Positions 33,300 to 59,551 of a stretch of 64,000 nucleotides of DNA are shown here, piece by piece. The notes beneath the pieces were generated by a model, which did no database searches, had not been told where the DNA came from, and saw only the letters and a program-made list of their open reading frames with translations. A program made the translations under genes and the position numbers. The DNA comes from Stackebrandtia endophytica. Its GTDB lineage: Bacteria > Actinomycetota > Actinomycetes > Mycobacteriales > Micromonosporaceae. The stretch is from positions 620,001 to 684,000 of the forward strand of contig NZ_VFOW01000001.1 of assembly GCF_006716355.1 (NCBI RefSeq). The letters are read 5' to 3'. Numbering within the stretch: position 1 is the stretch's first letter; the number at the start of each line of letters is the position of its first letter.

Positions 33300-33396
33300 G
33301 CCTCAGCTCGAGTGTTCACTGCCCAGCATTCCTGCTGTGTGCATGCGATGCTTGGCTACCCGAGAGGTGACTCGTGGCGCACTGTGGGAGGAACGG

Positions 33397-36300
33397 GTGA
33401 ACACAACCGCAATTACCTTGATCGATGGCCGCTTCCAGATCGAACGGGCCCTGGGAAGTGGAATGAGCGAGGTCTATCGAGCCATCGACACCCACGCCGA
33501 CCCGGCCAGCGCGGACCGCCATGTGGCACTGAAGGTCGTACGCCTGCGATCTATCCTTCCCAGCGAGCAAGACCAGCTGAGAAATCTGATCGAGCGTTTT
33601 GAGCGTGAGATCGACATCGTGAGAAAACTCAGCCATGCCGGTCTGCCGCGCATCGTCCAGTCTGGCGAAGATCAGGAGATCGGCCAGCCATATCTCGCGA
33701 TGGAATTCGTCGAAGGTATGGCGTTGAACGCTTTGATCGACGAAGGCGAACAGCTTCCCATCCGAGCGGTGGCCGGAATCGTCGGACAGGTAACCGCGAC
33801 GCTCCAAGCGGCACACCGGGCCGACATCCTGCACCGCGACATCAAACCCAGCAACGCCATGTTGCAGCCCGATGGGCGAGTCAGACTGCTGGATTTCGGG
33901 ATCGGCCGGTTTCTCAACGCCCCCAATCTGCCTCAATTGACCGAGTCGGGCATGACGCTGGGAACGACTCGTTATATGTCCCCAGAACATGCCAGGGGCC
34001 GTGATCTTTCGGTAAAGAGCGACCTGTACAGCCTGGGCTGCCTGTTGTATGAACTGCTATGTGGACAACCACCGTTCACTGAGGGCACCTCCAACGACAT
34101 CATGAACGCGCACATCGAGCAGGAACCTACCGCTATATCACTGATGCGCAGCGATATCCCAGACGCGCTGTCCGAGCTGGTGGATGGATTGCTCTCAAAG
34201 GATCCGGCCGATCGCCCGGAGGACGCTCCGGCTGTACTGGAGACGCTTCAAATCGTTGTCCGGGATACTCCCGTCCAACCGCTTCCCCGCTTGATCAAGG
34301 TCGACCCCGCCGACCAGTTCCGGCACGCCACTGGAGACCTGCCGAGTGTCGAGCTCGTCGAACAGGGTGACATCAGGGAGCGCTCCGTCTCCCAGGTGTC
34401 TGGGATGAACGTGTTCGAGGTCCATGCTCGCCTGATCGAGAAGTATCGGTCCTTCACCGCAGGGGGCGTCATCGTTAAGGACCCTCGAATCAAGAACTGG
34501 GTTCACAACGATATGGCGCGCGGTAACCAATGGCCCGCACCGTATCTCTCCCTGAACCCGTTCTTCGCTTCCGGCGGACGTGTCGACGAGTTGGTTGCCG
34601 CAGAGGTGTTGCATCCAGAGTGCTCGCGGATCTTCCAAACCGGGAAGTCTGAAGGCGTTGACGGCACTCCTATCACCCTGCACATGCATCAACGCCAGGC
34701 GTTGGAGGCCGCCCAGACCGGTGAATCCTATGTACTGACCACTGGTACCGGGTCAGGCAAGTCTCTGGCCTATATTGTGCCCATAGTGGATAAGGTCTTG
34801 CGTGACCGGTCCAATGACCCGGCACCTGGCGTTCGCGCGATCATCGTCTACCCCATGAACGCCCTGGCCAACAGTCAGAAACAGGAGCTGGAAAAGTATC
34901 TGTCGACGGGGTACGCCGACGGATCCGAGCCGGTCAGTTTCGCTCGCTATACCGGCCAGGAGTCGCAAGCCGAGCGCGACGCGATCTATCAGAATCCGCC
35001 TGACATTCTGCTGACGAACTATGTGATGTTGGAGTTGTTGCTGACCCGGCCTGATGATCGCAAGAAGCTGATCCACATGGCCTCAGGACTTCAGTTCCTC
35101 GTATTCGACGAGCTGCACACCTACCGAGGCAGGCAAGGGGCGGACGTCGCCTGGCTGATTCGCCGCGTCAAGGATGCCTGTCAGGCTCCTGAAGTCCAGT
35201 GTGTCGGCACCTCCGCGACCATGTCGACGGAGGGCAGTGTGGCCGATCAGCGCGCGGCGGTGGCAGGGGTCGCCAGTACACTCTTCGGGCGACCGATCGC
35301 ACCGGAGCGGATAATCGGGGAAACATTGATTCGGGCCACGGACGAAGGTCCGACAACAGTCAGCCTGGAACGCATCAGGACCCCGGCGGCGCCCGGCGCG
35401 TACCGTGACCTGATCGCGGATCCATTGGCCCGTTGGGTGGAGTCCCGTTTCGGGCTGCGGAGCTCCGAGGAAGGCGAGCTGGTTCGCCAGGAGCCGGTGA
35501 CAGTCGAGGTGGCGGCCGAAGAACTGGCGATCACCACTGGTGCCGACACCAAAGCATGCGAGGCCGCTATACGCAAGACCCTGCTGGCCGGATCCAAGGC
35601 GACCAACCCCGAGACCGGTCGTCCGCTGTTCGCGTTCCGGTTGCACCAGTTCGTCTCCAAGGGCGACAACGTCTATGTCACCATCGAGCCCGAGATGAGT
35701 CGAGAGATCACTCGTAGCTACCAGGTCGAATACCCCGGCGGGGACGGGAAGGTCCTGATCCCGGTGTCATTCTGCCGTGACTGTGGCCAGGAGTATCTGA
35801 CTGTTCAGCGAGTACGCGACGTGGCCACCAATCGGTACTCGTACCGTCCCAACAGGGATGCTGACGCGGTCGACGGCGACTTCGTTCGGGCCGGTTACCT
35901 CTACATCAGCCAGGACAATCCTTGGCCCTCCGACCAGCAAGAGGTGCTACGTCGACGCCTGCTACCGGAGTCCTGGCTGGAATCGGACCGCTCGGGAAAC
36001 GAGGATGTCAAACCCAACTTCCGCAAGCGGATGCCAATCCCGGTGACCGTGAACCCGCAGGGTCAGGAGAGCAGCGACGGCCTTGCTGCGGCGTTCATGC
36101 CCGACGCATTCCGGTTCTGTCTGCACTGTGGCGTCACTCATGAGAAGCGAGGCAAGGACTTCGGCAAGCTCGCAGCGTTCAACCAGGAGGGCCGTTCGTC
36201 GGCCACCTCCTTGATCTCGGCAACAATCGTGGAGGAACTCCAGCGATTTCCCGACACCGCGTTGACTCCTGAAGCAAAGAAATTGCTGTCGTTCGTGGAC

Positions 36301-39300
36301 AATCGGCAGGACGCGGCGCTGCAGGCCGGCCATTTCAATGACTTCGTGCAGGTCGTGCAGTTGCGCAGCGCGCTCTATCACGCGCTGGCCAAGGCCGAGG
36401 ATCACGAACTCACCAGTGAGGAAATCGCCAACAAGGTTGCCGACACGATCGGCGTGAGCTGGCAGGAGTACAGCGGTAAACCGGAGTTGGCGCAGCGGAT
36501 GGCCGTCCAGGCGGGAAAAGTATTCCGTCAAGTGCTCAATTTCCGGTTGCACGTGGACCTGCAGCGCGGCTGGCGAGTCACGATGCCGAATCTAGAGCAG
36601 ACCGGGCTGCTGTCCATCGATTACGGGGACCTCGACGCGGTCGCCCACCAGGACGGTCGCTGGGCATCCAGCCACGCCGCGCTTCGCGACGCCGACGGCG
36701 AGTTGCGCAGCGAACTGATGCGAACCGTCCTGGACGAGATGCGTCGCAGTTTGGCGGTCGATGCGAACTGCCTTGAAACAGAACAGTTCGAAACCCTGCA
36801 GCGGGCCAGCGAACACCGGCTGGCCCAGCCATGGCAGTTGGATGAGACCGATGCTCCCAAGCAGGCCACCGTTGTGCCGATGGCATCTTTCAAGGGCGCC
36901 GACCCGGCATATGTGTTCATGTCCGGGCTGGGAAAGGTTGGCAGGTACCTGAAACGGAGGCTTAACGACCCGGACCTGAGGCGGGACGATATCGAGGCGG
37001 TAATCAGCGATCTGTTGAAGACCATGGAAGCCGCCGGGCTGGTCGTTGCGGTGCAGCCCCAACCCGCGACCCGCGACCCACGGCATCGCGCACCGGACAT
37101 CGTCGGATACCGCGTCGACACCCAGGCGTTGATCTGGCGGTTGGGCGATGGGAAGCACGGTCCGCACGATCGGTTGGCCGCCACTCGCGAAGGCGGACAA
37201 CGTCCACCGGTCAATAAGTTCTTCGTCGAGCTCTATCAACGGTCCGCCGATGCGTTGTCGGGGCTTGTCGCCCATGAGCACACCGCGCAGGTTGCCCCAG
37301 AGGACCGGGAACAGCGCGAGCAGGCGTTCCGCGATGGTGATTTGAAGCTGTTGTACTGCTCCCCCACCATGGAACTGGGTGTCGACATCGCGTCGTTGAA
37401 CTCAGTGTTGCTGCGGAATGTCCCGCCGACACCCGCTAATTACGCTCAACGGTCCGGCCGGGCGGGTCGCTCCGGACAGCAGGCGCTGGTAGTGACCTAT
37501 TGCGCCACTGGGAACAGCCATGATCAGTACTATTTCAAGCGGCGGTCGCGCATGGTGGCCGGCGCGGTAGCGCCGCCTCGGCTTGATTTGTGCAATGAGG
37601 ATCTCGTACTGTCCCATGTGCAGGCGATCTGGTTGGCAGAGACCGGTATTTCGTTGCGTGGCAGCATCGCCGATCACGTCACCATCACCGCGATAGACCA
37701 AGACGGCTCCACGTCAGACACACCGATGGTCCTCGACCCCGACACGCAAGCCGAAATCACCAATCCGGCTGCGCTGCAACGCACCGAACGTATCGCCAGC
37801 GCGATACTCGCACCGATGTTGTCCGAACTCGCCGAAACCACCTGGTGGGACGATACTTGGCTGTCCCGCAAAGTGCGGAGCATTCCCGGACGATTCGACC
37901 GGGCGTTCGATCGCTGGCGTGACCTGTACCGGGCGGCGACCTTTGATCAACGTGAGCAGAACCTCCGCCGCATCAACTACGACCTGAAGCCGAAGGAACG
38001 GGATGCGGCTAAGAAGCGACGCGATGAGGCCGAGGCCCAACTGAACCTGCTGCGCAACTCTGCGCCGGGAAAGTCAATCATGTCGGATTTCAATCCTTAC
38101 CGGTATTTGGCCAGTGAGGGTTTCCTTCCGGGTTATTCGTTTCCCCGCTTGCCGTTGGCCGCGTTCGTTCCAAAGCGCGGCTTCGACGGCGATTACCTGC
38201 AGCGACCCCGTTTTCTGGCAATCCGGGAGTTCGGACCCGATGCGCTGGTCTATCACGAGGGCAGCCGGTATCAGGTGGTACGCATACAGCTGCCCGCCGA
38301 CACCAGTGGCAGTCTCACCACTGGAACCGCGAAGCGCTGCGAGGGCTGCGGCTATTGGCACGACCCGGAAGACCGGTCGGACAACTGCGAACTGTGCAGC
38401 GGCAAGCTGGGTGTCGAGACCACGAATCTGCTCCAACTGCAAACGGTGTACACCCGCAAACGGGAACGAATCTCCTCCGATGAGGAGGAACGCCGCCGCG
38501 CGGGATACCAATTGGTGACGTCCTACCGGTTCAACACCCATGGAGAGCGCGCTGGCCGTGCCGATGCATTGGTCTCCGACGAACAGGGCGACCTCGCCAC
38601 CGTGGTCTACGGTGATTCCGCGACGGTCCGGGTGGCCAACCTTCGCAGAGCCGGGGCGCCCACTGATGAACCGGATGGTTACTGGCTGGACCCGTTCACC
38701 GGGCGGTGGATGTCCAAGAAACAGGCCGAGGACGCAGTCGGTAACGTGACCGAACTGGCCGATGCCGATGACGACGTGCGGATGAAGCAGCGGGTCATAC
38801 CCTATGTGGAGGACACCCGTAACGTCGCGGTGCTTCGGCTCACCGACCGGCTGCCGGCCGATGACGCTTTGACCTTGATGTACGCGTTGGAACGCGGAAT
38901 CGAGGCCGGTTACGAGTTGGAGGACTCCGAGCTGGCCGCCGAGCTTCCAGCGGGCGACAATCTTTCGACCGGCTTTCTGTTGTTTGTGGAGTCGGCGGAG
39001 GGTGGTGCCGGAGTACTGCGACGCTTGCAGGCCGAGCGAGGTGCCCTGGCGTACGCCGCGGCCGAAGCCCTGCGGATCTGCCACTTTGACGCCGCCACGG
39101 GTGCAGATCTGAATCCCGACTGTGCCCGGGGCTGCTACGACTGTCTGCTGGCGTACTCCAATCAGCACAACCACGATCGGATCGACCGGCATAAGGTCGT
39201 CGACCTTCTTCGTCGGCTGACGAGTGCGCTGACCACGCAGACCGGGGCCGATGAGACCCGGACCGGGCAGCAGCAGCGGCTCGATGACCTGTCCGATTCC

Positions 39301-39612
39301 AGTCTGGAACGTGAATGGCTCGACTTCGTGAAATCCGGCGGTTGGCGGCTACCCGACCAGGCCCAGGTACTCGTGCCGGACGCGTCCGCTCGACCCGACT
39401 ACGTGTACCGCCTGCCGGGAGCTCCGCTGGCGGTGTTCGTCGACGGTCCACACCACGACAGCACCCAAGCAGCGCAACGTGATGCCGAAGCCCAGGATCG
39501 GCTCCTCGACGCTGGTTGGGACGTCGTGCGGTTCTCACATCGCGACGATTGGGAGAGCATCCTTGGACGCCATCCTTCATATTTCGGTACCGGGAGTACT
39601 GCGAGTGGCTGA
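33397..39612 (+). CDS. Ser/Thr kinase - SF2 helicase - DUF1998 - Vsr-like nuclease fusion protein
   Basis: The 2,071-residue protein has four parts. Residues 12-275 are a Hanks-type kinase: GSGMSEVY loop, Lys46, HRDIKPSN with Asp148, and DFG Asp166. Residues about 420-1400 are an SF2 helicase: Walker A TGTGSGKS at 449, DELH at 571, motif VI QRSGRAGRSGQ at 1351. A Cys4 cluster (1648/1651/1664/1667) and a DUF1998-type Cys4 (1895/1909/1913/1916) follow. Residues about 1975-2065 look like a Vsr/DUF559 nuclease (RPDYVYR with Asp2001, VFVDG with Asp2016, HHD, then DAGWDVVRF). GTG 33397 has GGGAGG upstream; an upstream frame start at 33283 overlaps the promoter. It leads a three-gene operon with SNF2 and methyltransferase genes. 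Role inferred: phage or plasmid defence. Confidence 0.87.
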   Translation: MNTTAITLIDGRFQIERALGSGMSEVYRAIDTHADPASADRHVALKVVRLRSILPSEQDQLRNLIERFEREIDIVRKLSHAGLPRIVQSGEDQEIGQPYLAMEFVEGMALNALIDEGEQLPIRAVAGIVGQVTATLQAAHRADILHRDIKPSNAMLQPDGRVRLLDFGIGRFLNAPNLPQLTESGMTLGTTRYMSPEHARGRDLSVKSDLYSLGCLLYELLCGQPPFTEGTSNDIMNAHIEQEPTAISLMRSDIPDALSELVDGLLSKDPADRPEDAPAVLETLQIVVRDTPVQPLPRLIKVDPADQFRHATGDLPSVELVEQGDIRERSVSQVSGMNVFEVHARLIEKYRSFTAGGVIVKDPRIKNWVHNDMARGNQWPAPYLSLNPFFASGGRVDELVAAEVLHPECSRIFQTGKSEGVDGTPITLHMHQRQALEAAQTGESYVLTTGTGSGKSLAYIVPIVDKVLRDRSNDPAPGVRAIIVYPMNALANSQKQELEKYLSTGYADGSEPVSFARYTGQESQAERDAIYQNPPDILLTNYVMLELLLTRPDDRKKLIHMASGLQFLVFDELHTYRGRQGADVAWLIRRVKDACQAPEVQCVGTSATMSTEGSVADQRAAVAGVASTLFGRPIAPERIIGETLIRATDEGPTTVSLERIRTPAAPGAYRDLIADPLARWVESRFGLRSSEEGELVRQEPVTVEVAAEELAITTGADTKACEAAIRKTLLAGSKATNPETGRPLFAFRLHQFVSKGDNVYVTIEPEMSREITRSYQVEYPGGDGKVLIPVSFCRDCGQEYLTVQRVRDVATNRYSYRPNRDADAVDGDFVRAGYLYISQDNPWPSDQQEVLRRRLLPESWLESDRSGNEDVKPNFRKRMPIPVTVNPQGQESSDGLAAAFMPDAFRFCLHCGVTHEKRGKDFGKLAAFNQEGRSSATSLISATIVEELQRFPDTALTPEAKKLLSFVDNRQDAALQAGHFNDFVQVVQLRSALYHALAKAEDHELTSEEIANKVADTIGVSWQEYSGKPELAQRMAVQAGKVFRQVLNFRLHVDLQRGWRVTMPNLEQTGLLSIDYGDLDAVAHQDGRWASSHAALRDADGELRSELMRTVLDEMRRSLAVDANCLETEQFETLQRASEHRLAQPWQLDETDAPKQATVVPMASFKGADPAYVFMSGLGKVGRYLKRRLNDPDLRRDDIEAVISDLLKTMEAAGLVVAVQPQPATRDPRHRAPDIVGYRVDTQALIWRLGDGKHGPHDRLAATREGGQRPPVNKFFVELYQRSADALSGLVAHEHTAQVAPEDREQREQAFRDGDLKLLYCSPTMELGVDIASLNSVLLRNVPPTPANYAQRSGRAGRSGQQALVVTYCATGNSHDQYYFKRRSRMVAGAVAPPRLDLCNEDLVLSHVQAIWLAETGISLRGSIADHVTITAIDQDGSTSDTPMVLDPDTQAEITNPAALQRTERIASAILAPMLSELAETTWWDDTWLSRKVRSIPGRFDRAFDRWRDLYRAATFDQREQNLRRINYDLKPKERDAAKKRRDEAEAQLNLLRNSAPGKSIMSDFNPYRYLASEGFLPGYSFPRLPLAAFVPKRGFDGDYLQRPRFLAIREFGPDALVYHEGSRYQVVRIQLPADTSGSLTTGTAKRCEGCGYWHDPEDRSDNCELCSGKLGVETTNLLQLQTVYTRKRERISSDEEERRRAGYQLVTSYRFNTHGERAGRADALVSDEQGDLATVVYGDSATVRVANLRRAGAPTDEPDGYWLDPFTGRWMSKKQAEDAVGNVTELADADDDVRMKQRVIPYVEDTRNVAVLRLTDRLPADDALTLMYALERGIEAGYELEDSELAAELPAGDNLSTGFLLFVESAEGGAGVLRRLQAERGALAYAAAEALRICHFDAATGADLNPDCARGCYDCLLAYSNQHNHDRIDRHKVVDLLRRLTSALTTQTGADETRTGQQQRLDDLSDSSLEREWLDFVKSGGWRLPDQAQVLVPDASARPDYVYRLPGAPLAVFVDGPHHDSTQAAQRDAEAQDRLLDAGWDVVRFSHRDDWESILGRHPSYFGTGSTASG

Positions 39613-39676
39613 GGTTCCCGCTTGGCTTCCGAGAACGTTCCGCAGCAGTCAGATCCACCGTTACTGAGGAGTAATC

Positions 39677-42523
39677 ATGACCGTCCATGCCCCGGGCAGC
39701 CTGGTGACCGCGCGCGGTCGAGACTGGGTGGTGCTGGCCGATTCGGTCGCCGACATGCTGGTGCTTCGCCCGCTGGGTGGATCCGACGACGATGTCGCGG
39801 CGGTGTTTCCAGAGCTGGAAACCGTCTCACCGGCCAGGTTCGCCGCCCCGACCGCCGCTGACTTGGGTGATGCGACCTCGGCGGGCCTGCTGCGCACCGC
39901 GCTGCGGGTCGGGTTTCGGTCGGCGGCGGGACCGTTCCGCTCACTGGCCGGGATCGCGGTGGAGCCACGGGCCTACCAGTTGGTTCCGTTGTTGATGGCG
40001 CTGCGGCAGGAGACCGCACGATTGCTGATCGCCGACGATGTCGGGGTCGGTAAGACCGTGGAGGCGGGTCTGATCGCGGCGGAGTTGTTGGCCTCGGGCG
40101 AGGCAAAAGGCCTGGCGGTACTGTGTTCCCCGGCGTTGGCGGAGCAGTGGCGCGACGAGTTGCGGTTCAAGTTCGGCATCAACGCCGAACTGGTATTGGC
40201 CTCCACAGTGCGGAAACTGGAGCGCGGCCTCGATTTGGGACAGTCGTTGTTCGACCGGTACCCGCATGTGATCGTCTCCACGGACTTCATCAAATCAACG
40301 CGGCATCGTGACGACTTCGTGCGGCACTGCCCGGATCTGGTGATCGTCGATGAGGCACACGGTTGCGTAACCACCGACGACAAACCCGGCAAGCAGCAGC
40401 AACAGCGTTACGAATTGATGCAGCGGCTGTCCGATGACCGGCAGCGACATCTGCTGCTACTGACCGCCACACCCCACAGCGGAAAGACGGCGGCGTTTCG
40501 CAACCTGCTGGGCCTGTTGGACCCAGAGCTGGCGTCTGTGGACACCGACTCCATGGTCGGTCGCCGCCGGTTGGCGCAGCACTTCGTGCAGCGGCGCCGC
40601 GCCGACATTCGCAAGTACCTCGACCAGGACACCGAATTCCCGTCCGACCGGCTGTTCAAGGACGAGACCTTCCAGATGAGCCCGGCCTATCGTCGGCTCC
40701 TCACCGAGGCACTGGATTACGCACGTGGCCGGGTCACTGACGCCGCGGGACGGGACCGGCGCACTGAGCGGATCGCCTGGTGGTCGGCGATCGCATTGTT
40801 GCGCTCGCTGGTGTCGTCCCCTCGAGCGGCGGCTCAAACGCTGTCGACCCGGTCGAGCACCGCGAAGGCCGCGACGGTGGCCGAGGCCGATGAATTGGGA
40901 CGCCCGGTGAGCTTCGACTTGACCGAGGACCGGCTGGACGGTGTGGACGCCGCACCCGGCGCCGCCACCGACGACCGCGCTCAGACCCTGAAAAGGCTGT
41001 CCGAGACCGCTCAGGCGCTGGAGGGCGTCAAGCACGACACCAAACTCGCCGTGGCGCTGAAGCAGGTGCGCGGGCTGCTGAAGGAGGGGTACCGGCCCAT
41101 CGTGTTCTGTCGGTATATCCCCACCGCCGAGTATGTCGCCGAACACCTGGCCCAAGCCCTCGGAAAGAAGGTGCACGTCGCCGCAGTCACCGGAACCTTG
41201 TCACCGCAACAGCGGATTCAACGTATCGAGGAACTGGCGGCGCTGGCGACCGAGGACCCGAAGGCCGGCAGAGTGCTGGTCGCCACCGACTGTCTGTCCG
41301 AAGGGGTGAACCTGCAGCACCACTTCGACGCGATCGTCCACTATGATCTGGCGTGGAACCCGACCCGGCATGACCAGCGGGAGGGCAGGGTCGACCGGTT
41401 CGGTCAGAAGCGCGACCGGGTGAAGGTGGTGACCGTTTACGGTTCCGACAACGGTATCGACGGCAAAGTGCTGGACGTACTCATCAAGAAGCACCGGATG
41501 ATCCGCCGGGACCTTGGCATCAGCGTCTCGGTACCCGATGAGGCATCCGCCGGGGTCACCGACGCCATCGTGGAGTGGCTGCTGCTGCAGGAGGGTCAGG
41601 CAGCCGGTGAACAACCGATGCTGGCCGGCTTGGAGCAGCACGTCACCGAGCTGCAGAACGAATGGCAGTCGGCCGGCGACCGAGAGAAGGCGTCTCGGTC
41701 CCGGTTCGCGCAGCACGCCATCCACACCGACGAGGTGGCTTCCGAGCTGGCCGAGATCCGCACGGTATTGGGTTCGGCCGCCGACATCGGTCCGTTCGTC
41801 CGTCACGCGTTGACGGGCCTGGGTGGCCTGTTGACCGAGATGCCCGGCGGTGATGTCGCCGCCGACCTCTCCGCGACCCCGGTCGGTCTGCGGGACGCAT
41901 TGGCGGCGGTGTCGGCCACCGATGCCACGCGGGTGGTGTTCCGGTCAAGCCCGGCAGTCCCGCGAGGCGAGGTCGGATTGGTGCGTACCGATCCCGGGGT
42001 TGCGGCCATCGCCGATTTCCTGTTGAACTCGGCGCTGGACGATCAGCTACCCGCCCGGGAACGTCCGGCGAGACGCTGCGGTGTCATGCGCACCAACGCG
42101 GTCGCCACCCGCACCACGATGCTGTTGGTGCGGTTCCGATTCCAGCTGAGACTGCCGTCGCGCTACGGCGTGCGGGAGCTGGTCGCCGAGGACATCAGAA
42201 TGGTGGCATTCGAAGGCAATCCGAGCAAGCCGGTGTGGTTGCCGGATGCCGACGCAGCCGAACTGCTCCGCGCCGAGGCCACCGTCAACACCGACCCCGA
42301 GTTCGCCGAGCGCACCGCAGAGCGGGTCCTGACCGGGCTGGCCGGCACCGACACCCAGTTGAACTCGATGGCCGACCGGCTCGCTGAGGAACTGTCGGCC
42401 TCACATCGCCGAGTCCGCAGCCAAACCGGTCAAGTCCGGCGCGGACTCACCGTGACCGCCCAAAAACCCACCGATCTGCTCGGCGTGTACGTGTATCTGC
42501 CTGCCCAAACCGGAGCCGCCTGA
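39677..42523 (+). CDS. SNF2-family helicase, DrmD-like
   Basis: The 948-residue protein has a SNF2/RapA-like ATPase core: Walker A DDVGVGKT at 120-127, DEAH at 225-228, and a C-terminal RecA domain with VLVATDCLSEGVNLQ and the Arg-finger motif DQREGRVDRFGQ. The overall design (N-terminal beta domain, long C-terminal helical part) resembles DrmD of class 1 DISARM and HepA-like ATPases that translocate on double-stranded DNA. ATG 39677 has GAGGAG upstream, 64 bases after the fusion gene. Its stop overlaps the methyltransferase ATG by one base, so the two are coupled. Confidence 0.9.
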   Translation: MTVHAPGSLVTARGRDWVVLADSVADMLVLRPLGGSDDDVAAVFPELETVSPARFAAPTAADLGDATSAGLLRTALRVGFRSAAGPFRSLAGIAVEPRAYQLVPLLMALRQETARLLIADDVGVGKTVEAGLIAAELLASGEAKGLAVLCSPALAEQWRDELRFKFGINAELVLASTVRKLERGLDLGQSLFDRYPHVIVSTDFIKSTRHRDDFVRHCPDLVIVDEAHGCVTTDDKPGKQQQQRYELMQRLSDDRQRHLLLLTATPHSGKTAAFRNLLGLLDPELASVDTDSMVGRRRLAQHFVQRRRADIRKYLDQDTEFPSDRLFKDETFQMSPAYRRLLTEALDYARGRVTDAAGRDRRTERIAWWSAIALLRSLVSSPRAAAQTLSTRSSTAKAATVAEADELGRPVSFDLTEDRLDGVDAAPGAATDDRAQTLKRLSETAQALEGVKHDTKLAVALKQVRGLLKEGYRPIVFCRYIPTAEYVAEHLAQALGKKVHVAAVTGTLSPQQRIQRIEELAALATEDPKAGRVLVATDCLSEGVNLQHHFDAIVHYDLAWNPTRHDQREGRVDRFGQKRDRVKVVTVYGSDNGIDGKVLDVLIKKHRMIRRDLGISVSVPDEASAGVTDAIVEWLLLQEGQAAGEQPMLAGLEQHVTELQNEWQSAGDREKASRSRFAQHAIHTDEVASELAEIRTVLGSAADIGPFVRHALTGLGGLLTEMPGGDVAADLSATPVGLRDALAAVSATDATRVVFRSSPAVPRGEVGLVRTDPGVAAIADFLLNSALDDQLPARERPARRCGVMRTNAVATRTTMLLVRFRFQLRLPSRYGVRELVAEDIRMVAFEGNPSKPVWLPDADAAELLRAEATVNTDPEFAERTAERVLTGLAGTDTQLNSMADRLAEELSASHRRVRSQTGQVRRGLTVTAQKPTDLLGVYVYLPAQTGAA

Positions 42524-45500
42524 TGAATGCCGTTGCCAGTCACACCGCCGTCGTCACCAAGGGCGGACTGTTGCCGGCCGACCTGCTCGAACGGATCGCC
42601 GAGGGGCAGGCCCTCGATGGTGCGAAGGCGGCCGATTACGCCGTGATCGGACGGCGCACGGTAACCGATGACGCCGAACGGCATTGGGAGTACTTGAAGT
42701 CGGCGTGGCGGGAGCTGCGTCGTGAACTGCCCGACGCGGCTTCGGACCCGAGCGGCATGACGGCGAGGTACTGGCTGGAGCCGTTGTTCGCGGAACTGGG
42801 TTTCGGTCGACTGATCCCGGTGGAGGAGGCAGGCATTCCCAGCGACGACGGCGGTAAGACATTTCCGATCAGTCACCGCTGGGGGCACGTACCGATCCAC
42901 TTCGTCGACTGGGCCGAGGACCTCGAGTCCCGGCCCAGGGCGGGTAGGCCGGCACCGCATTCGCTGGTGCAGGAATGTCTCAACCGCACCGACGAGCACC
43001 TGTGGGCCATCGTTACCAATGGGCGGCAGCTGCGACTGCTGCGGGATTCGAGTGCGCTGGCCGGTACCGCCTATGTGGAGTTCGACCTGGCGGCGATCTT
43101 CGATGCCGAACTGGTCAGCGAATTCGTCCTGCTTTATCGGCTGTTGCACGTCTCCCGATTCGAGGTGGTGCAGGGCGCGCCGGTTTCGACCTGTTGGCTG
43201 GAGAAGTGGCGACTGGCCGCGATCGCCGATGGCGTGCGGGCGCTTGATCAGCTGCGCGACGGCGTGGAGAGGGCGCTGCGCACCCTCGGTACCGGCTTTC
43301 TTTCTCACCCCCGCAACGGAGGCATCCTGGACGGCTTGGACGCCACCCGGCTTCACAAGGCACTGTTGCGGTTGACGTATCGGCTGCTGTTTCTGTTCGT
43401 GGCCGAGGACCGGGAGGCACTGCATCCACCCGACGCCGATGAAACCGCAGTGGAACGTTACCGCCGCTACTATTCGACGGCCCGGCTACGGGACCACGCA
43501 CGGCGTCGCCGCGGCACCAGCCACAGTGACCAGTACCAGGCGTTGCGGCTGGTACTGGATGCGTTGGGTAGCGAAGGCGGGCAACCGAGGCTGGCCATTC
43601 CGGGCCTGGGCGGCCTGTTCGACCACACGGAGGCCGATACGGTTCTAGACGGCATGGCGCTGTCCAATGAATACCTGCTGCGGGCCGTGCGGCATCTCGC
43701 GGTGATCGCCGACCAGGGCACCCGCCGCAACCGGGTGGTCGACTACCGGCATCTGGACGCCGAAGAACTCGGTTCGGTCTATGAGTCGCTGTTGGAACTG
43801 GAGCCCAAGTACAGTCGGGCCGAGCGCAGGTTCGAGTTGGTGGCGCTCAGTGGCAACCAACGCAAGACAACCGGCGCCTACTACACACCCTCGCCACTGA
43901 TCGACCGACTGCTGGACACCACACTAGACCCGGTGATCGACGCTACCGTCGAACGCGGAGAACAGCATGGTGATATCGAACGAGAACTATTGGGGCTGAC
44001 GGTATGCGACCCCGCCTGCGGCTCCGGCCACTTTCTGGTGGCGGCTGCTCGCAGGATCGCCAAACGCCTGGCCTCGGTGCGAGAACAGACTCCCGAACCC
44101 ACCCCAACTGCGCTGCGCGGTGCACTGCGCGACGTAATCGGGCGCTGCATCTTCGGGGTCGACATCAACCCGATGGCGGTGGAGCTGGCGAAGGTGTCAC
44201 TTTGGTTGGAGGCGCTGGAACCGGGCAAGCCACTGGGCTTCCTGGACGCACATATCAAATGCGGTAACGCCCTGGTCGGGGCGCTGCCCTCGCTTGTGGC
44301 CGGTGGAGTACCGGATGAAGCGTGGACGGCCATCGAAGGCGACGACAGGAAGTACGCCGCCAAACTCAAGAAACGCAATAAGGCCGAGCGGGAACGGTCC
44401 GAGTCCGGCGCCGACCAAGCTCTGTTCAGCGTGGTCGACGCCATGAACCTGGCCAACACCGAACTGGCCGAACAACTGCGGCAGGTCACCTTGGCACCCG
44501 ATGGTGACCTGAGCCAGGTGCGGGCGCAGGCCAAGGCGTATGAACGGTGGAGCAACTCGAGTCCGTATCTGCGGGCTCGCGGGTTGGCCGACACCTGGTG
44601 CGCAGCGTTCTTCTGGCATAAAACCGAGGAAGCCCCACCGGCCCCGACCCATGAGATGTTTCGCGAGCTGACAACCGGCGGCTTCGACACGTTCACCGGG
44701 TCTGCGATCCTCGATGAAGCCACCCGGTTGCGCAACCAGCACGGCTTCTTTCACTGGCATCTGGAATTCCCCGAAGTGTTCGACGTGCCAGAGTCCGTGG
44801 TGGGTGTCGACCCGGCGACCGGCTGGAACGGCGGTTTCAGCGCGGTGGTGGGGAATCCGCCGTGGGAAAATATCGAGCTAAAGGAACAAGAATTCTTCGC
44901 TATTCGTGATCCAGATGTAGCAATACTCGCTGGCGGACATAGAAAGAAGGCGATTTCAGAACTCCACATAGAAAATCCAAACCTTGCTTATGAATACAAA
45001 GAAGCACTCCGGAAAGTAAAAGCACTTCCGAAATACGTCTCAAACTCCGGCAACTATCCACTATATGCGCGTGGTATGCGAGAAGTGAAGGGCGCGAACC
45101 GCTATAAGACGGATGCACTATTTACAGAATTGGTAGGCAAGCTCACCACCAAACTTGGACAGTTTGGTTTGATAGTACCGACCGGAATCGCCACTGATGC
45201 AGTCACTCAGTTTCTATTCCGCGCGATCACTCACAGCAACACCCTTGTAGCCGTATTCGACTTTGAGAATCAGGCCCGCCGCTTCTTTCCCGCAGTGCAC
45301 GCCTCCTACAAATTCTGCATCTTTTCCGTCGCTGGTCAGTCCGTGCCTGGACGAACTGCGAAGTTTGCCTTCTTTCTCCATGATCCTGCTGAACTTGACG
45401 TCCTCGAACGTTCATTTACGCTAAAGTCCCAAGACATTGTCATTCTAAATCCAAATACTGGCACTTGTCCAACGTTCCGTCGAGGCCGAGACGCAGAGTT

Positions 45501-46530
45501 GACACTAGATATATACCGACAAGTCCCCGTTGCCATCAATCGGTCTCGACGAGAGAACCCGTGGAACTTTGAATTTCGCCAAGGCTTGTTCAACATCACA
45601 GATGACCATGACTCCTTCCGCACAACGGAATTCTTGGAAGCTGAGGAATGGCTTCGCGTCGGAAATGCATTTCATAAAGATCAACATCGCATGCTACCAA
45701 TGCACGAAGGTCGAATGGGGCATCATTACAACCATCGATTTTCCAATTCCGACAGTGAAATGCCGACATCGTCTATCGACCTCAAAAAGCCTGACTATTT
45801 GCCGCAGCCAGAGTTCTGGGTAGCCGATGAAGAGGTAAACGAAAGAGCCGAACGACGCGGCATATTGCATCACAACGGGATACTGGTTCATCGCCGAGTA
45901 GCACGCACCACCGATGAACGCACAGCCATTGCATCTATTATCCCATTTGGGGCCGTGTCGAATGGCTGGATAATCACCATCGGCCCGAGTCCGGCAGAAC
46001 TGATTCTTCTAGTAGCGACATACAATTCGTTCGTGTATGACTACTGCCTTCGGAACAGCCTAACCCAGCCTAGTATTCCCCAAAGCACATCAGAACAACT
46101 CCCGGTTCCACTACCGTCCCATATGCGAATCCATCAACATTTCATTACCCCGCGTGTCCTGGAACTCACCTACACCGCGTATGACATGACACCCTTCGCT
46201 CGGGACCTAGGCGATAACGGACCACCGTTTGTTTGGGTTGACGAGCGGCGGGCGGTCATGCGGGCTGAGCTAGATGCGTTGTTCTTTCTCCTGTATGGCA
46301 TCGAGCGGGACGACGTGGACTACATCATGGAGACCTTCCCAATTGTCAAGAAGAAAGACATCGCCGCCCATGGCAACTACCTGACCAAGGACCGCATCCT
46401 GGCAATCTATGACCGGATGACCGAGGCTGGCGTTTCCATCGAACACCCGGCAATCGACGGCGAGAACTTCGCCAGCGAACTCGGTCCATTGCCCGGCAAC
46501 GGCCCCCGCCATCCACCGCAGGACCGGTGA
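42523..46530 (+). CDS. Adenine-specific DNA methyltransferase, PglX/DrmMI/Eco57I-like
   Basis: The 1,335-residue protein has SAM-binding motif I DPACGSGHF at 496-504 and catalytic motif IV NPPW at 778-781, as in Eco57I-type and BREX PglX (BrxX) N6-adenine methyltransferases and class 1 DISARM DrmMI. The N-terminal 450 residues are helical, with the KTTGAYYTPSPLIDRLL signature just before motif I. From just after NPPW (about base 44,865) to about 46,200, covering the likely target-recognition part, base composition turns visibly AT-richer with different codon use. This suggests a swapped specificity domain. It methylates host DNA as self-marking by inference; it could also act with the helicases. 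Confidence 0.9.
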   Translation: MNAVASHTAVVTKGGLLPADLLERIAEGQALDGAKAADYAVIGRRTVTDDAERHWEYLKSAWRELRRELPDAASDPSGMTARYWLEPLFAELGFGRLIPVEEAGIPSDDGGKTFPISHRWGHVPIHFVDWAEDLESRPRAGRPAPHSLVQECLNRTDEHLWAIVTNGRQLRLLRDSSALAGTAYVEFDLAAIFDAELVSEFVLLYRLLHVSRFEVVQGAPVSTCWLEKWRLAAIADGVRALDQLRDGVERALRTLGTGFLSHPRNGGILDGLDATRLHKALLRLTYRLLFLFVAEDREALHPPDADETAVERYRRYYSTARLRDHARRRRGTSHSDQYQALRLVLDALGSEGGQPRLAIPGLGGLFDHTEADTVLDGMALSNEYLLRAVRHLAVIADQGTRRNRVVDYRHLDAEELGSVYESLLELEPKYSRAERRFELVALSGNQRKTTGAYYTPSPLIDRLLDTTLDPVIDATVERGEQHGDIERELLGLTVCDPACGSGHFLVAAARRIAKRLASVREQTPEPTPTALRGALRDVIGRCIFGVDINPMAVELAKVSLWLEALEPGKPLGFLDAHIKCGNALVGALPSLVAGGVPDEAWTAIEGDDRKYAAKLKKRNKAERERSESGADQALFSVVDAMNLANTELAEQLRQVTLAPDGDLSQVRAQAKAYERWSNSSPYLRARGLADTWCAAFFWHKTEEAPPAPTHEMFRELTTGGFDTFTGSAILDEATRLRNQHGFFHWHLEFPEVFDVPESVVGVDPATGWNGGFSAVVGNPPWENIELKEQEFFAIRDPDVAILAGGHRKKAISELHIENPNLAYEYKEALRKVKALPKYVSNSGNYPLYARGMREVKGANRYKTDALFTELVGKLTTKLGQFGLIVPTGIATDAVTQFLFRAITHSNTLVAVFDFENQARRFFPAVHASYKFCIFSVAGQSVPGRTAKFAFFLHDPAELDVLERSFTLKSQDIVILNPNTGTCPTFRRGRDAELTLDIYRQVPVAINRSRRENPWNFEFRQGLFNITDDHDSFRTTEFLEAEEWLRVGNAFHKDQHRMLPMHEGRMGHHYNHRFSNSDSEMPTSSIDLKKPDYLPQPEFWVADEEVNERAERRGILHHNGILVHRRVARTTDERTAIASIIPFGAVSNGWIITIGPSPAELILLVATYNSFVYDYCLRNSLTQPSIPQSTSEQLPVPLPSHMRIHQHFITPRVLELTYTAYDMTPFARDLGDNGPPFVWVDERRAVMRAELDALFFLLYGIERDDVDYIMETFPIVKKKDIAAHGNYLTKDRILAIYDRMTEAGVSIEHPAIDGENFASELGPLPGNGPRHPPQDR

Positions 46531-46770: not shown

Positions 46771-47650
46771 AGAGCTTCTATCAAGTTTCTGGTGTGACCT
46801 CGCTGTGGATCGGGTGGGCGGCTTGGTTTGATGGTGGGGTGGCTGCGCCGTGGATAGTGGATGATGACTTGTGGAGTGTGGTGGAGCCGTTGTTGCCGCC
46901 GCATCGGCCGGGGCGGCGTGGCCCGGTTCCGATTGATGACCGTAAATGCTTGCAGGGGATTCTGTTCGTCCTGTTCACCGGTATCGGGTGGGAGGATCTA
47001 CCGCAGGAGCTGGGGTTCGGTTCCGGTATGACCTGTTGGCGGGGCCTGAGACGCTGGACCGACGCGGGCGTGTTCGATCGTCTTCATCGGGTGCTGCTGG
47101 CTGAATTGAATGCGGCCGGTGAGCTGGACTGGTCGAAGGCTTTTGAATCGACGCGGGGCACATCAGGTCTAAAAAGGGGGCTCATGCGTGGGGCCTTCTC
47201 CAGTCGATCGTCGACGTCCTGGGTCCAAACACCACGTGGTCTTTGGACGGAAAAGGCATACCGCTCGCCGTGGTGACCACCGGCGGCAACATCGCTGATA
47301 TCACCGCAGCCGAAGACCTGGTAGAAGCCATACCACCCATCGCCGGCCGACGAGGCAGACCACGCCGCCGACCTGATGTGATCCTCGCCGACAAGGGCTA
47401 TGACTCCCGAAAGTTCCGAGAAGCATTGCAGGCCAATGGCATCGTTGCGATCATCCCGAAACGCGGCACGAAAGGCATCATCGGGCTCGGCAAGATCCGG
47501 TGGGTCGTTGAACGCACCATCTCCTGGCTCCACCAGTACAAACGCCTAGCCATCCGCTGGGAACACCACACCGAACTCCACAACGCACCCATCTCACTCG
47601 CCTGCGCCCTCATCTGCTGGAGACGACTCAAGCAAACGAGATAGACGTTT
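46770..47650 (+). mobile_element. IS5-family insertion sequence remnant
   Basis: Short imperfect terminal inverted repeats, TCTATCaaGTTT (46777-46788) and AAACgaGATAGA (47634-47645, reverse complement TCTATCtcGTTT), flank a transposase region. The element is about 0.87 kb, the usual size of IS5/IS1031-type elements. Exact ends and target duplication could not be fixed. The transposase is broken (see separate entry), so the element cannot move by itself. Confidence 0.8.
46794..47644 (+). pseudogene. Broken IS5-type transposase
   Basis: The N-terminal part (WIVDDDLWSVVEPLLPPHRPG, then GIGWEDLPQELGFGSG) is a DUF4096-type start. The C-terminal part (DGKGIPLAVVTTGGNIADI, ILADKGYD, RWVVERTISWLHQYKRLA) is the DDE domain. 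Reading conserved blocks in order needs at least three frame changes. One lies near 47,145, before HIRSKKGAHAWG; one near 47,200, before PSPVDRRRPGSKHHVV; one near 47,240, before DGKGIP. A single programmed shift cannot explain this, so it is decayed. Confidence 0.85.
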
Positions 47651-47660
47651 AAAGGGACGT

Positions 47661-47861
47661 TCAATCGGTACCGGAGATCTCAGCCAGTAGACTTTGCCAG
47701 TCAGCGCGGCTGAGGACCAGTATCCCGCCTAGCGGGAACTTGCTGTCACGAGCGGCGATCTCATTGAAGCAGAGCGCGACCTCGACACAGGTATTTCCAT
47801 TGTTACCACTGCTCTTGCTGGGCTTCCGCCACGGCAGGGATGCCACGACCGGTGTAGTCAT
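47661..47861 (-). CDS. DUF397 family protein
   Basis: The 66-residue protein has the DUF397 pattern: WRKPSKSSGNNGNTCVEVA, the RDSKFPLGGILVLSRADW block and a short helical end. DUF397 proteins pair with XRE/DUF5753 regulators in actinomycetes (for example next to whiJ- or abaA-like genes) and are thought to modulate them in developmental control; some pairs behave like toxin-antitoxin modules. Its start overlaps the regulator's stop by 4 bases. Confidence 0.9.
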   Translation of the reverse strand: MTTPVVASLPWRKPSKSSGNNGNTCVEVALCFNEIAARDSKFPLGGILVLSRADWQSLLAEISGTD

Positions 47862-48700
47862 CTCAGGTTCTTTCTCATAGCACCAACCAGTTCCAGCGAT
47901 TCTGCCCCTGAAAGGCTACCGCGAAGTATGCGCGCGAAATCCGCCGCCTGATCATCGATCGCGGCACGGCTCTCGAGGAAGACATTCATGCTTCCAGTCT
48001 GCGTGACCGCGATGATCTCCAGCGGTTGCGGCAGCGTGAAAATGGTGAACTCACCTTGCAGTGCGGTCTTTGCCGCCGCCTCGAATGTCAGGACGCGGAT
48101 ATCTACATTGGGCGATTGGGCCATCCTGAGTAGGTGATCGAACTGCTGACGCATCACCGCCTCGTCCCCCACCTGACATCGCAGTGCCGCTTCGTACAGA
48201 ACTATCTGGATCTGAGGGCTCGTCTCAACTTCGAACAGATCCTGACGCTTCTTACGAAAACTCAACCATCGTCTCGCCTGTGCAGACGATTTGGCATGAG
48301 AATCGACACCGATAAGCGCTTCCATGTAGCCCGACGTTTGCAGCAATCCAGGCACCAACAATGGCTCGAAGACCTGCAGTTCGGTTGCATGCCACTCACA
48401 CCAGACATAGTCCAGCAGGTCTCGGTTCACATCCCCGACGTGAGGGCTCCACCATCCACCCACCTGGAGCGCGTGAGCCGTCGCGGCGATCTGACTCTGC
48501 ACGCTTTGCGGAATCCCATAGCAACCCAGCAAACGCTCTACGAGCTCTGGACTGGGAATTCTCTGCCCGTTCTCAAAACGACTCACCATGCTGCGGTCTT
48601 GTCCCAGTCCGGAGGCAGCTTCGTCAATCGACTTGCGCGCGACCAGGCGTAGGCCCTTCAGCGCACTTCCCCACAGGCGGTTGAGCGGCGACACAGTCAT
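47858..48700 (-). CDS. XRE-family regulator with DUF5753 domain
   Basis: The 280-residue protein has an N-terminal HTH (LRLVARKSIDEAASGLGQDR, then SMVSRFENGQRIPSPELVERLL). A DUF5753 domain of about 180 residues follows (EPLLVPGLLQTSGYMEALI, then VLYEAALRCQVGDEAVMRQQ). This is the standard partner of DUF397. The upstream region carries a cluster of TGTGAC boxes shared with the divergent small gene, a likely operator. Confidence 0.9.
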   Translation of the reverse strand: MTVSPLNRLWGSALKGLRLVARKSIDEAASGLGQDRSMVSRFENGQRIPSPELVERLLGCYGIPQSVQSQIAATAHALQVGGWWSPHVGDVNRDLLDYVWCEWHATELQVFEPLLVPGLLQTSGYMEALIGVDSHAKSSAQARRWLSFRKKRQDLFEVETSPQIQIVLYEAALRCQVGDEAVMRQQFDHLLRMAQSPNVDIRVLTFEAAAKTALQGEFTIFTLPQPLEIIAVTQTGSMNVFLESRAAIDDQAADFARILRGSLSGAESLELVGAMRKNLR

Positions 48701-49441: not shown

Positions 49442-49906
49442 ATGCCCAGTTTTGCTTCGCTCGGGTCGGTTCGGCCCGGCGCCGTCGACGCTGACGTTGC
49501 CGCGCGAGCGTCCCGCCGGATCAGGGATTATCTAGCAAGTCATCCGGAGGCCCCCGAGGTCGTCGAGATAGAGATGGAACACGGCGAGCCGACCCTGGTG
49601 CTGCCGCGTCAAGCGGTGGTCATGTTCGCTCAAATTCTCACGCACCTGGCCGAGGGCGAGGGAGTCTCGGTGATCCCATCTCATGCCGAACTGACAACCC
49701 AACAAGCAGCACACATGTTGAACGTTTCGCGGCCGTTCCTGATCGGTCTTCTGGACTCGGGTGAGATACCACATCGCAAGGTAGGTCGGCACAGGCGAGT
49801 CAAGTTCACGGACTTGCAGGCGTACCTGCGCAGGGATGATGCGAAACGGCGAGAGGTCGCCGATGAACTCAGTGCCTTGAGTCAAGAATTGGGGCTGTAC
49901 GAGTGA
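49442..49906 (+). CDS. HTH/excisionase-type antitoxin
   Basis: The 154-residue protein carries a MerR/excisionase-like HTH (LTTQQAAHMLNVSRPFLIGL, then LDSGEIPHRKVGRHRRVKFTD, residues about 80-120). It ends in a helical tail (KRREVADELSALSQELGLYE) suited to wrap the toxin. Paired with a PIN-domain gene by a 4-base overlap, it is the likely antitoxin and autorepressor of a type II module. An excellent AAGGAGGTG site precedes ATG 49442. Confidence 0.85.
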   Translation: MPSFASLGSVRPGAVDADVAARASRRIRDYLASHPEAPEVVEIEMEHGEPTLVLPRQAVVMFAQILTHLAEGEGVSVIPSHAELTTQQAAHMLNVSRPFLIGLLDSGEIPHRKVGRHRRVKFTDLQAYLRRDDAKRREVADELSALSQELGLYE

Positions 49907-50457
49907 CGATGACCGTGGTGTACGACGCCAACGTGCTGTACCCGAACGCCCTGCGGGATCTTCTCATCCGACTCGCCCAAACCGACCTGATACGGGCGCG
50001 GTGGACTGAGCAGATTCTGGATGAGATGTTCAGAGCGTTGTCTCGTACCAGATCGCATATCCCGGCATCGAAGCACGAGAAGCTGCGATCACTGATGAAC
50101 GCCTCGGTCCGCGACTGCCTGGTCACTGGCTATGAACCTCTTATAGCCGGGATCGATCTGCCCGACCCAGACGATCGCCACGTCGTCGCGGCCGCCCTCC
50201 GGTGTCGCGCCGACCTTATCGTCACGTTCAACCTCGGTGATTTCCCGGACGATAAGCTGACTGACCTTTCGGTATCGGCGATCAGCCCAGACGACTTCCT
50301 GCTCGACCTCATCGGGCTTGACACAAAAGTCGTCTGGGCCTGCATCCAGCAGATCGTGGACTCCCGTACCAACCCTCCTGCGTCAATCGATGACGTACTC
50401 GGGCAACTGGAACGATCCGGAATCATCGAAGCCACGGCCGTGCTAAGAATTAGCTGA
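49903..50457 (+). CDS. PIN-domain toxin (RNase)
   Basis: The 184-residue protein has the PIN acidic residues: Asp in VVYDANVLYPN near the N-terminus, Glu in QILDEMFRAL, and Asp residues in LPDPDDRHVVAAAL with a further Asp-rich patch (NLGDFPDD). PIN toxins cleave tRNA or rRNA. It is longer than VapC (about 130 residues) because of a C-terminal extension of about 45 residues. The GTG 49903 overlaps the antitoxin stop; ATG 49909 is an alternative start. Its 3' end overlaps the end of the convergent pPIWI-RE gene by 8 bases. Confidence 0.85.
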   Translation: MTMTVVYDANVLYPNALRDLLIRLAQTDLIRARWTEQILDEMFRALSRTRSHIPASKHEKLRSLMNASVRDCLVTGYEPLIAGIDLPDPDDRHVVAAALRCRADLIVTFNLGDFPDDKLTDLSVSAISPDDFLLDLIGLDTKVVWACIQQIVDSRTNPPASIDDVLGQLERSGIIEATAVLRIS

Positions 50458-53359: not shown

Positions 53360-53370
53360 TTCGGTCTCCC

Positions 53371-57457: not shown

Positions 57458-57800
57458 GTTTCTCGAAGTGTTCGGCCAAGGGATCGGCCACCGTCATGCG
57501 CCATTCGAGGCATACCTCGGTGGGAGCCCGTGTCAACTCGCCGACCAACGGCTCATCGAGTTCCAGACCAATACCCCAGTCGACCGGAGCCGACCTCGCC
57601 GACCAGGTCACCATGTCGGGCACACTGACCGGCGGGGTCACACCGTTCCTAAGGCAGGTCAGGACCAGCAGGTTGTACGCCTGTCTGACCCGACGCGAAT
57701 AGATGGGCTCGGTCGGTCGCTCCTTCCGCGACAGGTCCACCAGCGCCGTTGCCAGCAGGTGCAGTAGGTCGGCGCCGCCGATTACTGGGACCGCGTTCAT
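57417..57800 (-). CDS. Small pPIWI-RE-associated protein, unknown function
   Basis: The 127-residue protein is mostly helical at its N-terminus (ADLLHLLATALVDLSRKERP, then YSRRVRQAYNLLVLTCLRNG), followed by a Trp-rich segment (MVTWSARSAPVDWGIGLEL). I do not recognise a fold with certainty; one of the small accessory domains described for PIWI-RE three-gene islands is possible. It overlaps both neighbours (4 bases upstream, 41 downstream), showing it belongs to the operon. Confidence 0.7.
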   Translation of the reverse strand: MNAVPVIGGADLLHLLATALVDLSRKERPTEPIYSRRVRQAYNLLVLTCLRNGVTPPVSVPDMVTWSARSAPVDWGIGLELDEPLVGELTRAPTEVCLEWRMTVADPLAEHFEKRATEDRVGRLPQR

Positions 57801-59392: not shown

Positions 59393-59551
59393 GCCAACCA
59401 CTGTACACGGAGTTTGTGAACATAGCCAACCCATTCCGTGAACTTGGGCATTAACACACCTAAGCTAATGTCACATCGTTCGTGTAGACAGGACTTGACC
59501 AGGTGTGATGCCCTAGGATTCGGTCTGCCAACCACCAGAAGAGGTCACAAC
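59393..59551. promoter_or_regulatory. Divergent promoter region of pPIWI-RE operon and methylase-like gene
   Basis: These 159 bases must drive both transcripts. TTGACC at 59495-59500 could be a -35 box for the rightward gene, but no well-spaced -10 is evident (TAGGAT at 59514 is only 13 bases away). No clear operator palindrome was seen. Confidence 0.35.

Follow-up and report, generated by a model that had tools for sequence, protein, structure and literature searches.

The window analysed here, a stretch of 64,000 nucleotides (positions 620001–684000 of contig NZ_VFOW01000001.1) from the 5.66 Mb genome of Stackebrandtia endophytica, contains an operon of three genes, all on the plus strand. 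Their open reading frames occupy positions 33397–39612, 39677–42523 and 42523–46530 of the window, the first two genes being separated by 64 bases and the last two overlapping by 1 base, as an initial annotation made from the letters alone had already reported. We are nearly certain that this is an ARMADA Type I operon of the order ArmC-ArmA-ArmB, in which a PknB-like kinase, its active site intact, forms the N-terminus of ArmC. According to Bell et al. (bioRxiv 2025, PMC12458937), ARMADA systems combine a YprA-like and a BrxHII-like helicase with a PglX-like methyltransferase, and their Type I is abundant in Actinomycetota.

The operon and its place among known defence systems

The first gene (33397–39612, 2071 residues) unites a Ser/Thr kinase, a YprA-like DUF1998 helicase and a C-terminal Vsr/PD-(D/E)xK-like domain in one polypeptide. 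Its open frame reaches upstream to 33283; the GTG at 33397, preferred also in the initial annotation, is the better start since it is preceded by the good ribosome-binding site GGGAGGA (33386–33392). The PknB-like kinase domain (residues 14–275; 33436–34221) is recognised by Pfam (Pkinase, E-value 1.6e-43) and by its conservation, and the closest solved kinases in the PDB are PknB and PknA. Comparison of fused and unfused ArmC proteins delimits a kinase tail and linker (34222–34404), after which comes the ATG codon of Met337. Further downstream are found the RecA1/DEAD domain (residues 431–610; 34687–35226; Pfam 4.2e-28) with Walker A motif GTGSGKS and DELH in invariant columns, the RecA2/Helicase_C domain (residues 1289–1360; 37261–37476; 6.5e-13) and long helices (residues 1457–1553; 37765–38055), which according to the secondary structure of the predicted model occupy the position of the coiled-coil helix-turn-helix extension described for ARMADA (PMC12458937). 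The MZB/DUF1998 zinc domain (residues 1827–1917; 38875–39147) exceeds the curated Pfam cut-off with 2.6e-7 and shows conserved cysteines 1909, 1913 and 1916. At the C-terminus (residues 1996–2050; 39382–39546) a Vsr/MTES_1575-like PD-(D/E)xK domain is indicated by a weak Pfam match (MTES_1575, restriction endonuclease/Vsr-like, 0.0011, under the curated cut-off), by weak fold matches and by conservation, with D2001 invariant and D2016 nearly invariant in alignment A3.

The predicted model of the helicase core (residues 336–1420) has a predicted local distance difference test value (pLDDT) of 88.4 and its best fold match is MrfA (1e-10). Helical and beta inserts are present where the described ARMADA features, a BrxA-like insert after RecA1 and a beta-barrel zinc module plus a MarR-like domain in RecA2 (PMC12458937), are expected, and the CxxC pairs 793/796 and 908/911 are conserved; BrxA itself is absent among the 50 matches listed for the whole-model fold search of this core. 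For the model of residues 1415–2071 (mean pLDDT 85.8) Foldseek returned MrfA (E 6e-6) and DrmAB (2e-3), together with weak matches to PD-(D/E)xK nucleases (cap-snatching enzymes, Hjc, TnsA and FAN1), every E-value being above 0.1. The fusion of kinase, SF2 helicase, DUF1998 and Vsr-like nuclease that the initial annotation had read from this gene is real and conserved, the nuclease part being less firmly established than the rest.

The second gene, ArmA (39677–42523), encodes a RapA/SNF2-like, more precisely BrxHII-like, ATPase according to PADLOC, Pfam, NCBIfam and blastp with E. coli ArmA-II. Among the PADLOC models it scores 1355 bits with PDLC02853 (‘DpdE’), 283 with DrmD, 209 with BrxHI and 183 (2.1e-54) with a model labelled DrmA, and with 307.7 bits it misses the NCBIfam cut-off for DrmD (610) by half. 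This means that the earlier label “DrmD-like SNF2 ATPase” is right concerning SNF2/RapA and loose concerning DrmD. The third gene, ArmB (42523–46530), is the PglX/DrmMI-like N6-adenine DNA methyltransferase that had been expected, with matches to DrmMI in PADLOC (1.8e-67), to Eco57I in Pfam (1.4e-16) and to ArmB-II in blastp; the NCBIfam cut-offs for PglX are not reached. Its motif NPPW at residues 778–781 is invariant across the alignment and missing in one row. For ArmC the best PADLOC model is ‘DruE3’ (1.2e-103) and no ARMADA name occurs among the PADLOC matches. As PDLC02853 fits ArmA and DruE3 tops the matches of ArmC, these models will annotate ArmA as DpdE and ArmC as DruE.

The assignment to ARMADA Type I is based on gene order, domains, homology, profile scores and the genes that follow. 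The succession of YprA-like, BrxHII/RapA-like and PglX-like genes is that of Type I, in which generally the YprA gene comes first and has DUF1998 and a C-terminal Vsr-type nuclease in the same protein (PMC12458937). In blastp against the island of E. coli ATCC 8739, which served as comparison set for ARMADA Type II, the three proteins found ArmA-II (1.8e-41), ArmB-II (1.8e-38) and ArmC-II (1.5e-30), respectively; ArmC of the window also found DruE-III of Druantia (2.6e-27). A profile of Type I ArmC gave 305.7 bits with ArmC-II, 236.5 with DruE-III and 62.0 with the host's own MrfA-like protein, in a comparison confined to these three proteins. Downstream of the operon lie genes for an IS4/IS5-type transposase, a helix-turn-helix protein and a PIN protein, and no ArmD-like gene follows, ArmD itself not having been used as query.

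The kinase of about 300 residues at the N-terminus of ArmC is an addition to the described Type I architecture, of which no defining part is lost. It is the new part of the operon, the three-gene core being known as ARMADA Type I. The word ‘kinase’ occurs 0 times in the main text of PMC12458937, and no kinase-bearing ARMADA or DUF1998 helicase was found in the literature searched, whose scope lay outside supplementary files and most subscription papers. Two earlier claims change in consequence. That the three genes represent a single anti-invader system holds as far as one operon and one probable defence system are concerned, but the core of this system was known before. That a nuclease had been merged onto a DUF1998 helicase in this operon does not hold, as helicase-DUF1998-Vsr is the usual ARMADA architecture (PMC12458937) and the kinase is the sole addition.

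Several related systems can be set against this operon. ARMADA Type II of E. coli NCTC 12900 and ATCC 8739 has homologues of ArmA, ArmB and ArmC, with about 22–35% identity in the aligned parts, but a different gene order, an extra ArmD (RelE-UvrD/GajB-like) and no described kinase. The Pgl system (BREX type 2) of Streptomyces coelicolor likewise brings a PglX-like methyltransferase, a protein kinase and an ATPase together in actinobacterial phage defence, and phosphorylation was proposed as its switch (PMC4365076); its kinase, however, resides on the NERD protein PglW and not on a helicase-nuclease, and neither PglZ nor PglY was matched in the seven proteins scanned here (the operon and four neighbours). 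DruE of Druantia type III belongs to the same YprA-like helicase superfamily, but it scores lower than ArmC-II with the Type I profile, and in the seven proteins neither DruH nor other Dru partners were matched, the partners being ArmA and ArmB. Class 1 DISARM has SNF2-like and methyltransferase genes (DrmD, DrmMI) that are distantly related to those of the operon, from which it differs in that here DUF1998 is fused to the helicase, a phospholipase D-like (PLD) nuclease is lacking in the operon and the DrmD cut-off is missed. Membership in DISARM, BREX or Druantia is ruled out by scores and by partners missing among the seven proteins scanned, and for the first two this had been the opinion of the initial annotation. 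The view of the operon as a variant of Class 1 DISARM or BREX is almost certainly wrong: genes 2 and 3 do resemble DrmD/BrxH and DrmMI/PglX, gene 2 additionally matches the DrmA-labelled model and the kinase weakly matches the PglW model (65.5 bits, cut-off 990), but DrmB, DrmC, PglZ and BrxC/PglY were all unmatched in the seven proteins, ArmC groups with ArmC-II and DruE, and the NCBIfam cut-offs for DrmD and PglX are unmet.

Distribution and ancestry of the fused kinase

Relatives of ArmC were collected from samples of the order, the class and the phylum (397, 394 and 396 genomes, some of them shared) and were present in 34, 32 and 39 genomes, respectively, the last number being obtained with a looser limit that includes distant helicases. 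Since the query for these and the genus sample was ArmC of the window or a near relative, and genomes are shared, they do not amount to a complete count of ARMADA Type I. With the kinase as query, two of 32 loci (that of the window and L004) were matched in one set and 25 of 53 in another. Stretches of 17–20 kb around the 26 kinase loci other than that of the window, and around 14 loci chosen for having no fused kinase, were combined with the window locus in a set of 41 loci. The search for the architecture in other genomes was successful in that the order ArmC-ArmA-ArmB recurs throughout this set, i.e. in 27/27 kinase loci and 14/14 non-kinase loci, and the association of the three genes is beyond chance. 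The idea that the fusion makes ArmC self-contained is unsupported: none of the 27 kinase loci has lost the SNF2 or the methyltransferase gene, and E. coli ARMADA Type II, which protects from phage without growth arrest, is described as needing all four of its genes (PMC12458937).

In 26 of the 27 kinase loci the kinase is in frame with an entire ArmC, the ArmC frame of L111 being broken. Residues K46, E71, H146-R147-D148, K150, N153, D166-F167-G168 and E197, among them the motifs HRDxKxxN (146–153) and DFG (166–168), are kept in all 27 fused kinases. Identity with the kinase of the window is 42–51% for the fused kinases from the set of 53 loci and goes down to 38% in L165; among the host's other kinases the one with the best score reaches 38%, with 39% as maximum. 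Identity alone does not separate fused kinases from host kinases; better evidence comes from the tree.

When GTDB species contigs were scanned with 24 aligned fused proteins as query, the best 80 of 582 relatives were kept. Among these 80 there are 41 with a fused kinase, four with a divergently oriented one and 35 without, six of the 35 lying too near a contig end for their kinase state to be judged. ArmA is present in 75 and ArmB in 67 of them, most misses occurring at contig ends; L172 continues for about 6 kb past ArmC without ArmA or ArmB, in L216 the gap that precedes ArmA is longer, and two genes, ArmA of L175 and ArmB of L209, are each found in separate pieces. The fused members come from Streptomyces, Kitasatospora, Micromonospora, Phytomonospora, Glycomyces, Nonomuraea, Actinomadura, Nocardia, Amycolatopsis, Saccharomonospora, Thermocrispum, Pseudonocardia, Actinocrispum, Streptomonospora and Marinactinospora. 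L147, from a contig with the label Melainabacteria, falls within actinobacterial sequences in the 100-row ArmC tree presented below, and the label is probably a binning error. The remaining non-actinobacterial ArmC whose upstream sequence was long enough (Chloroflexota, Bacillota, Planctomycetota and others) had no kinase.

Met337 stands in the alignment where unfused ArmC begins, and its codon is ATG in 71 of 73 fused genes. The start codons of 35 genes counted as unfused, among them L164 and the contig-edge locus L260, which is possibly fused, are ATG (20), GTG (13) and TTG (2). At the level of sequence this junction fits an in-frame fusion of an upstream kinase gene to ArmC. An internal start at Met337 that would yield a second, kinase-less product is unsupported although the methionine is kept, because a Shine-Dalgarno-like motif in front of it is rare in fused genes (10/73) if compared to unfused ones (17/35).

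In an ArmC tree of 71 rows (27 with and 44 without kinase) all kinase bearers lie on one side of one branch, with 100 in the Shimodaira–Hasegawa-like approximate likelihood ratio test (SH-aLRT). The fused kinases, too, group in a single clade (99/96) apart from 11 rows of own-genome kinases; in this tree the rows L127 and L130, from neighbouring loci and near-identical, may be one kinase. To judge from these trees, the fusion has a single ancestry. A second arrangement occurs in four Streptomyces loci (L182, L188, L206, L208), where an unfused ArmC is accompanied by a stand-alone kinase of about 320 residues in opposite direction that starts about 150–250 bases from ArmC. Of 150 sampled Streptomyces genomes, 24 contained ArmC, with 26 copies in all; 22 copies have a fused and three a divergent kinase (L248–L250) and one lies at a contig edge, which gives 25/26 with a kinase of either kind. 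In the 100-row ArmC tree (41 fused, seven divergent, 46 without kinase and six at contig edges) the seven divergent-kinase loci make up one clade that is sister to the fused clade. The joint clade comprises 49 rows with an SH-aLRT of 100 and one kinase loss (L164). This tree was calculated with a quick method, three of its seven divergent rows are partial, long-branch warnings concern other parts of it and the outgroup is not on one side of a branch; L096 and L138 are from one genome, the six edge rows are of unknown state and both ArmC trees omit partial loci.

The kinase tree places the fused kinases with L229/L230 (95/88), which are the nearest tested relatives and are located inside pPIWI-RE islands, and the divergent kinases with L220/L221 (98/96). 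For a single clade of fused plus divergent kinases the approximately unbiased (AU) test, performed with 15 of the 27 fused kinases and after four other kinases were dropped, gave p-AU 0.0545. A common origin is thus neither shown nor firmly rejected, so that the association of kinase and ArmC arose either once with later exchange or twice. These comparisons favour, not decisively, two separate recruitments. As a separate observation, the C-terminal nuclease motif in ArmC of Streptomyces sp. AC1-42W (L164:9695–15289) looks altered by eye.

Possible role of the kinase

The operon bears on the question how large helicase-nuclease-methyltransferase systems such as ARMADA, DISARM and BREX leave host DNA untouched and act against phage DNA. 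A conserved kinase addition in one actinobacterial branch suggests that the system is switched by phosphorylation. In the fused branch the likely switch would be part of the motor-nuclease protein, with an intact kinase across many actinobacterial genera and a parallel in the sister lineage.

For the way in which this could work we propose a kinase-controlled Type I subtype with the kinase as regulatory switch in cis, an analogy-based scheme whose chances we consider evenly balanced. ArmB together with ArmA would read or set the methylation state of DNA, whereas ArmC would translocate on foreign DNA and its C-terminal nuclease would cut it, so that the phage is stopped directly. The experimental phage protection in PMC12458937, direct and non-abortive, was obtained with Type II from E. 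coli only. On infection the kinase would phosphorylate ArmC itself and/or ArmA and ArmB in the same complex, and the system would thereby move from a resting or modifying to a restricting state. Phosphorylation, its targets and trigger, the complex and the direction of the switch are inferred. The scheme is proposed because of the PglW precedent and because here, too, an actinobacterial PglX-like methyltransferase is accompanied by a kinase, which in this case is joined to the motor-nuclease; the kinase activity of PglW is essential in Pgl and was proposed to pass the infection signal to PglX or to activate it (PMC4365076).

A number of observations weigh against a phospho-switch in cis. Outside this branch ARMADA Type I is without a kinase: in the 41-locus set all 14 non-fused loci are without a kinase match across the whole 17–20 kb, and 35 of the best 80 of 582 relatives have no kinase, including Streptomyces L217, to which Streptomyces L124 of the 41-locus set has to be added (both are distant in the ArmC tree). 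Within the fused clade L164 has lost its kinase. Among the recurring flank genes of the 41 loci (about 2–4 kb per side, inspected by eye with no profile scan) no phosphatase or phospho-reader was recognised. The divergent kinase could serve a neighbour, because divergent-kinase loci adjoin pPIWI-RE genes. Candidate phosphosites are also of little help. S377, S393, S509, S618 and T628 of ArmA are clade-specific Ser/Thr positions in the 41 loci, but three of the five are not Ser/Thr in three divergent-kinase loci examined, S377 and S393 are common in kinase-less loci of a wider set, too, and S509 of ArmA as well as T802 of ArmC may reflect plain ancestry. The hunt for phosphosites via clade-specific Ser/Thr thus gave weak leads only. 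As to the divergent kinase, we favour a tie with ArmC because its far-side gene varies, being a PIWI gene (L182), a methyltransferase (L188) or, by eye, one of an SbcC-like pair (L206), and ArmC is constant.

A more specific form of the proposal is rather unlikely. In this form kinase-ARMADA would be a distinct subtype in which phosphorylation in cis gives the licence for restriction, with a kinase that senses a DNA-engaged ArmC, arms ArmA, ArmB and ArmC, and was drawn from the defence kinases of pPIWI-RE islands. If it came from such composite islands, neighbouring defence systems may share kinase signalling.

Alternatively, the kinase could be a second effector, by which ArmC on foreign DNA would lead to phosphorylation of host or phage proteins and to a stop of growth or phage synthesis, as an abortive back-up. 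The kinase matches the PADLOC models of the PD-T4-6 kinase (1e-76), named for an anti-phage kinase, and a suicidal kinase role was suggested for PglW (PMC12839542), but these models probably match many PknB-like kinases, ARMADA Type II works without growth arrest (PMC12458937) and the fusion to a DNA motor would fit control in cis better; we therefore judge this explanation as unlikely. Improbable is also a role as sensor or decoy for, or as counter to, phage kinases and phosphatases, which would keep the phosphorylation state of ArmC and ArmA right. Phage kinases that inhibit many DNA-targeting host proteins were reported (PMC12904381), and the title of a paper cited in PMC13316683 links a Ser/Thr kinase with immunity escape of mycobacteriophage TM4; a pure decoy is unlikely because all catalytic residues are kept. 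That the kinase is a passenger, i.e. a read-through fusion of one ancestor persisting without defence role, is very improbable. A single fusion event would explain the distribution and L164 did lose its kinase, but the active-site residues are kept in 27/27 kinases despite drift to 42–51% identity with that of the window and the sister clade also has a kinase beside ArmC.

Phospho-control of such systems is directly testable by one point mutant, in tractable Streptomyces, and kinase-ARMADA provides a comparison case for the long-unsolved Pgl system.

The surroundings of the operon

Directly 3′ of the operon an IS4/IS5-family transposase is encoded in two overlapping frames (46794–47644), followed by an XRE/DUF5753 regulator (47858–48700) and a pair of HTH_17 and PIN-domain genes (49442–50457) that resembles a toxin-antitoxin module. 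The location of the operon beside another defence system, mentioned already in the initial annotation, was confirmed by the adjoining pPIWI-RE system. Its region (50450–61741) contains PIWI, a DinG-like helicase and a PD-(D/E)xK nuclease together with a type I-like methyltransferase that is divergent from the nuclease gene and has specificity-like matches at its end. In the 2013 description the pPIWI-RE triad is said to have no associated methylase (PMC3702460).

The RNase H domain of pPIWI-RE was found in 21 of 80 ARMADA genomes searched. All seven divergent-kinase loci (L182, L188, L208, L206/G1109, G1112, G1219 and G1130) have pPIWI-RE genes within about 32 kb, G1112 and G1219 within about 2 kb and G1130 within about 32 kb. 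Among fused-kinase genomes the RNase H domain is no more than about 30 kb away from ArmC in the window and G1184; in G023, G1137, G1208, G1226 and G1230 it shares the contig with ArmC at a large distance, and in the others it is missing or lies on a different contig. The flanks of L153 and L143 contain pPIWI-RE genes. Ten of 41 fused loci have a related type I-like methyltransferase immediately upstream; it is not in the flanks of the 35 kinase-less loci with the exception of L164, where it is far downstream. Kinase-ARMADA and pPIWI-RE possibly form a composite island.

Two pPIWI-RE islands of Streptomyces contain, between methyltransferase and nuclease and in opposite direction, a gene for a kinase of about 500 residues (L188:5180–6676, L275:9469–10962). 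Another recurring neighbour, McrB-like to judge from the one member scanned, is a protein with AAA_5 and Mrr_N domains located 3′ of ArmB (L117:15351–18026), reading frames of this type being present in 16 of the 41 loci, eight with and eight without kinase. Finally, the Glycomyces locus L138 encodes a second PglX-like methyltransferase, 53% identical to ArmB, about 5.5 kb upstream of the ArmC start.

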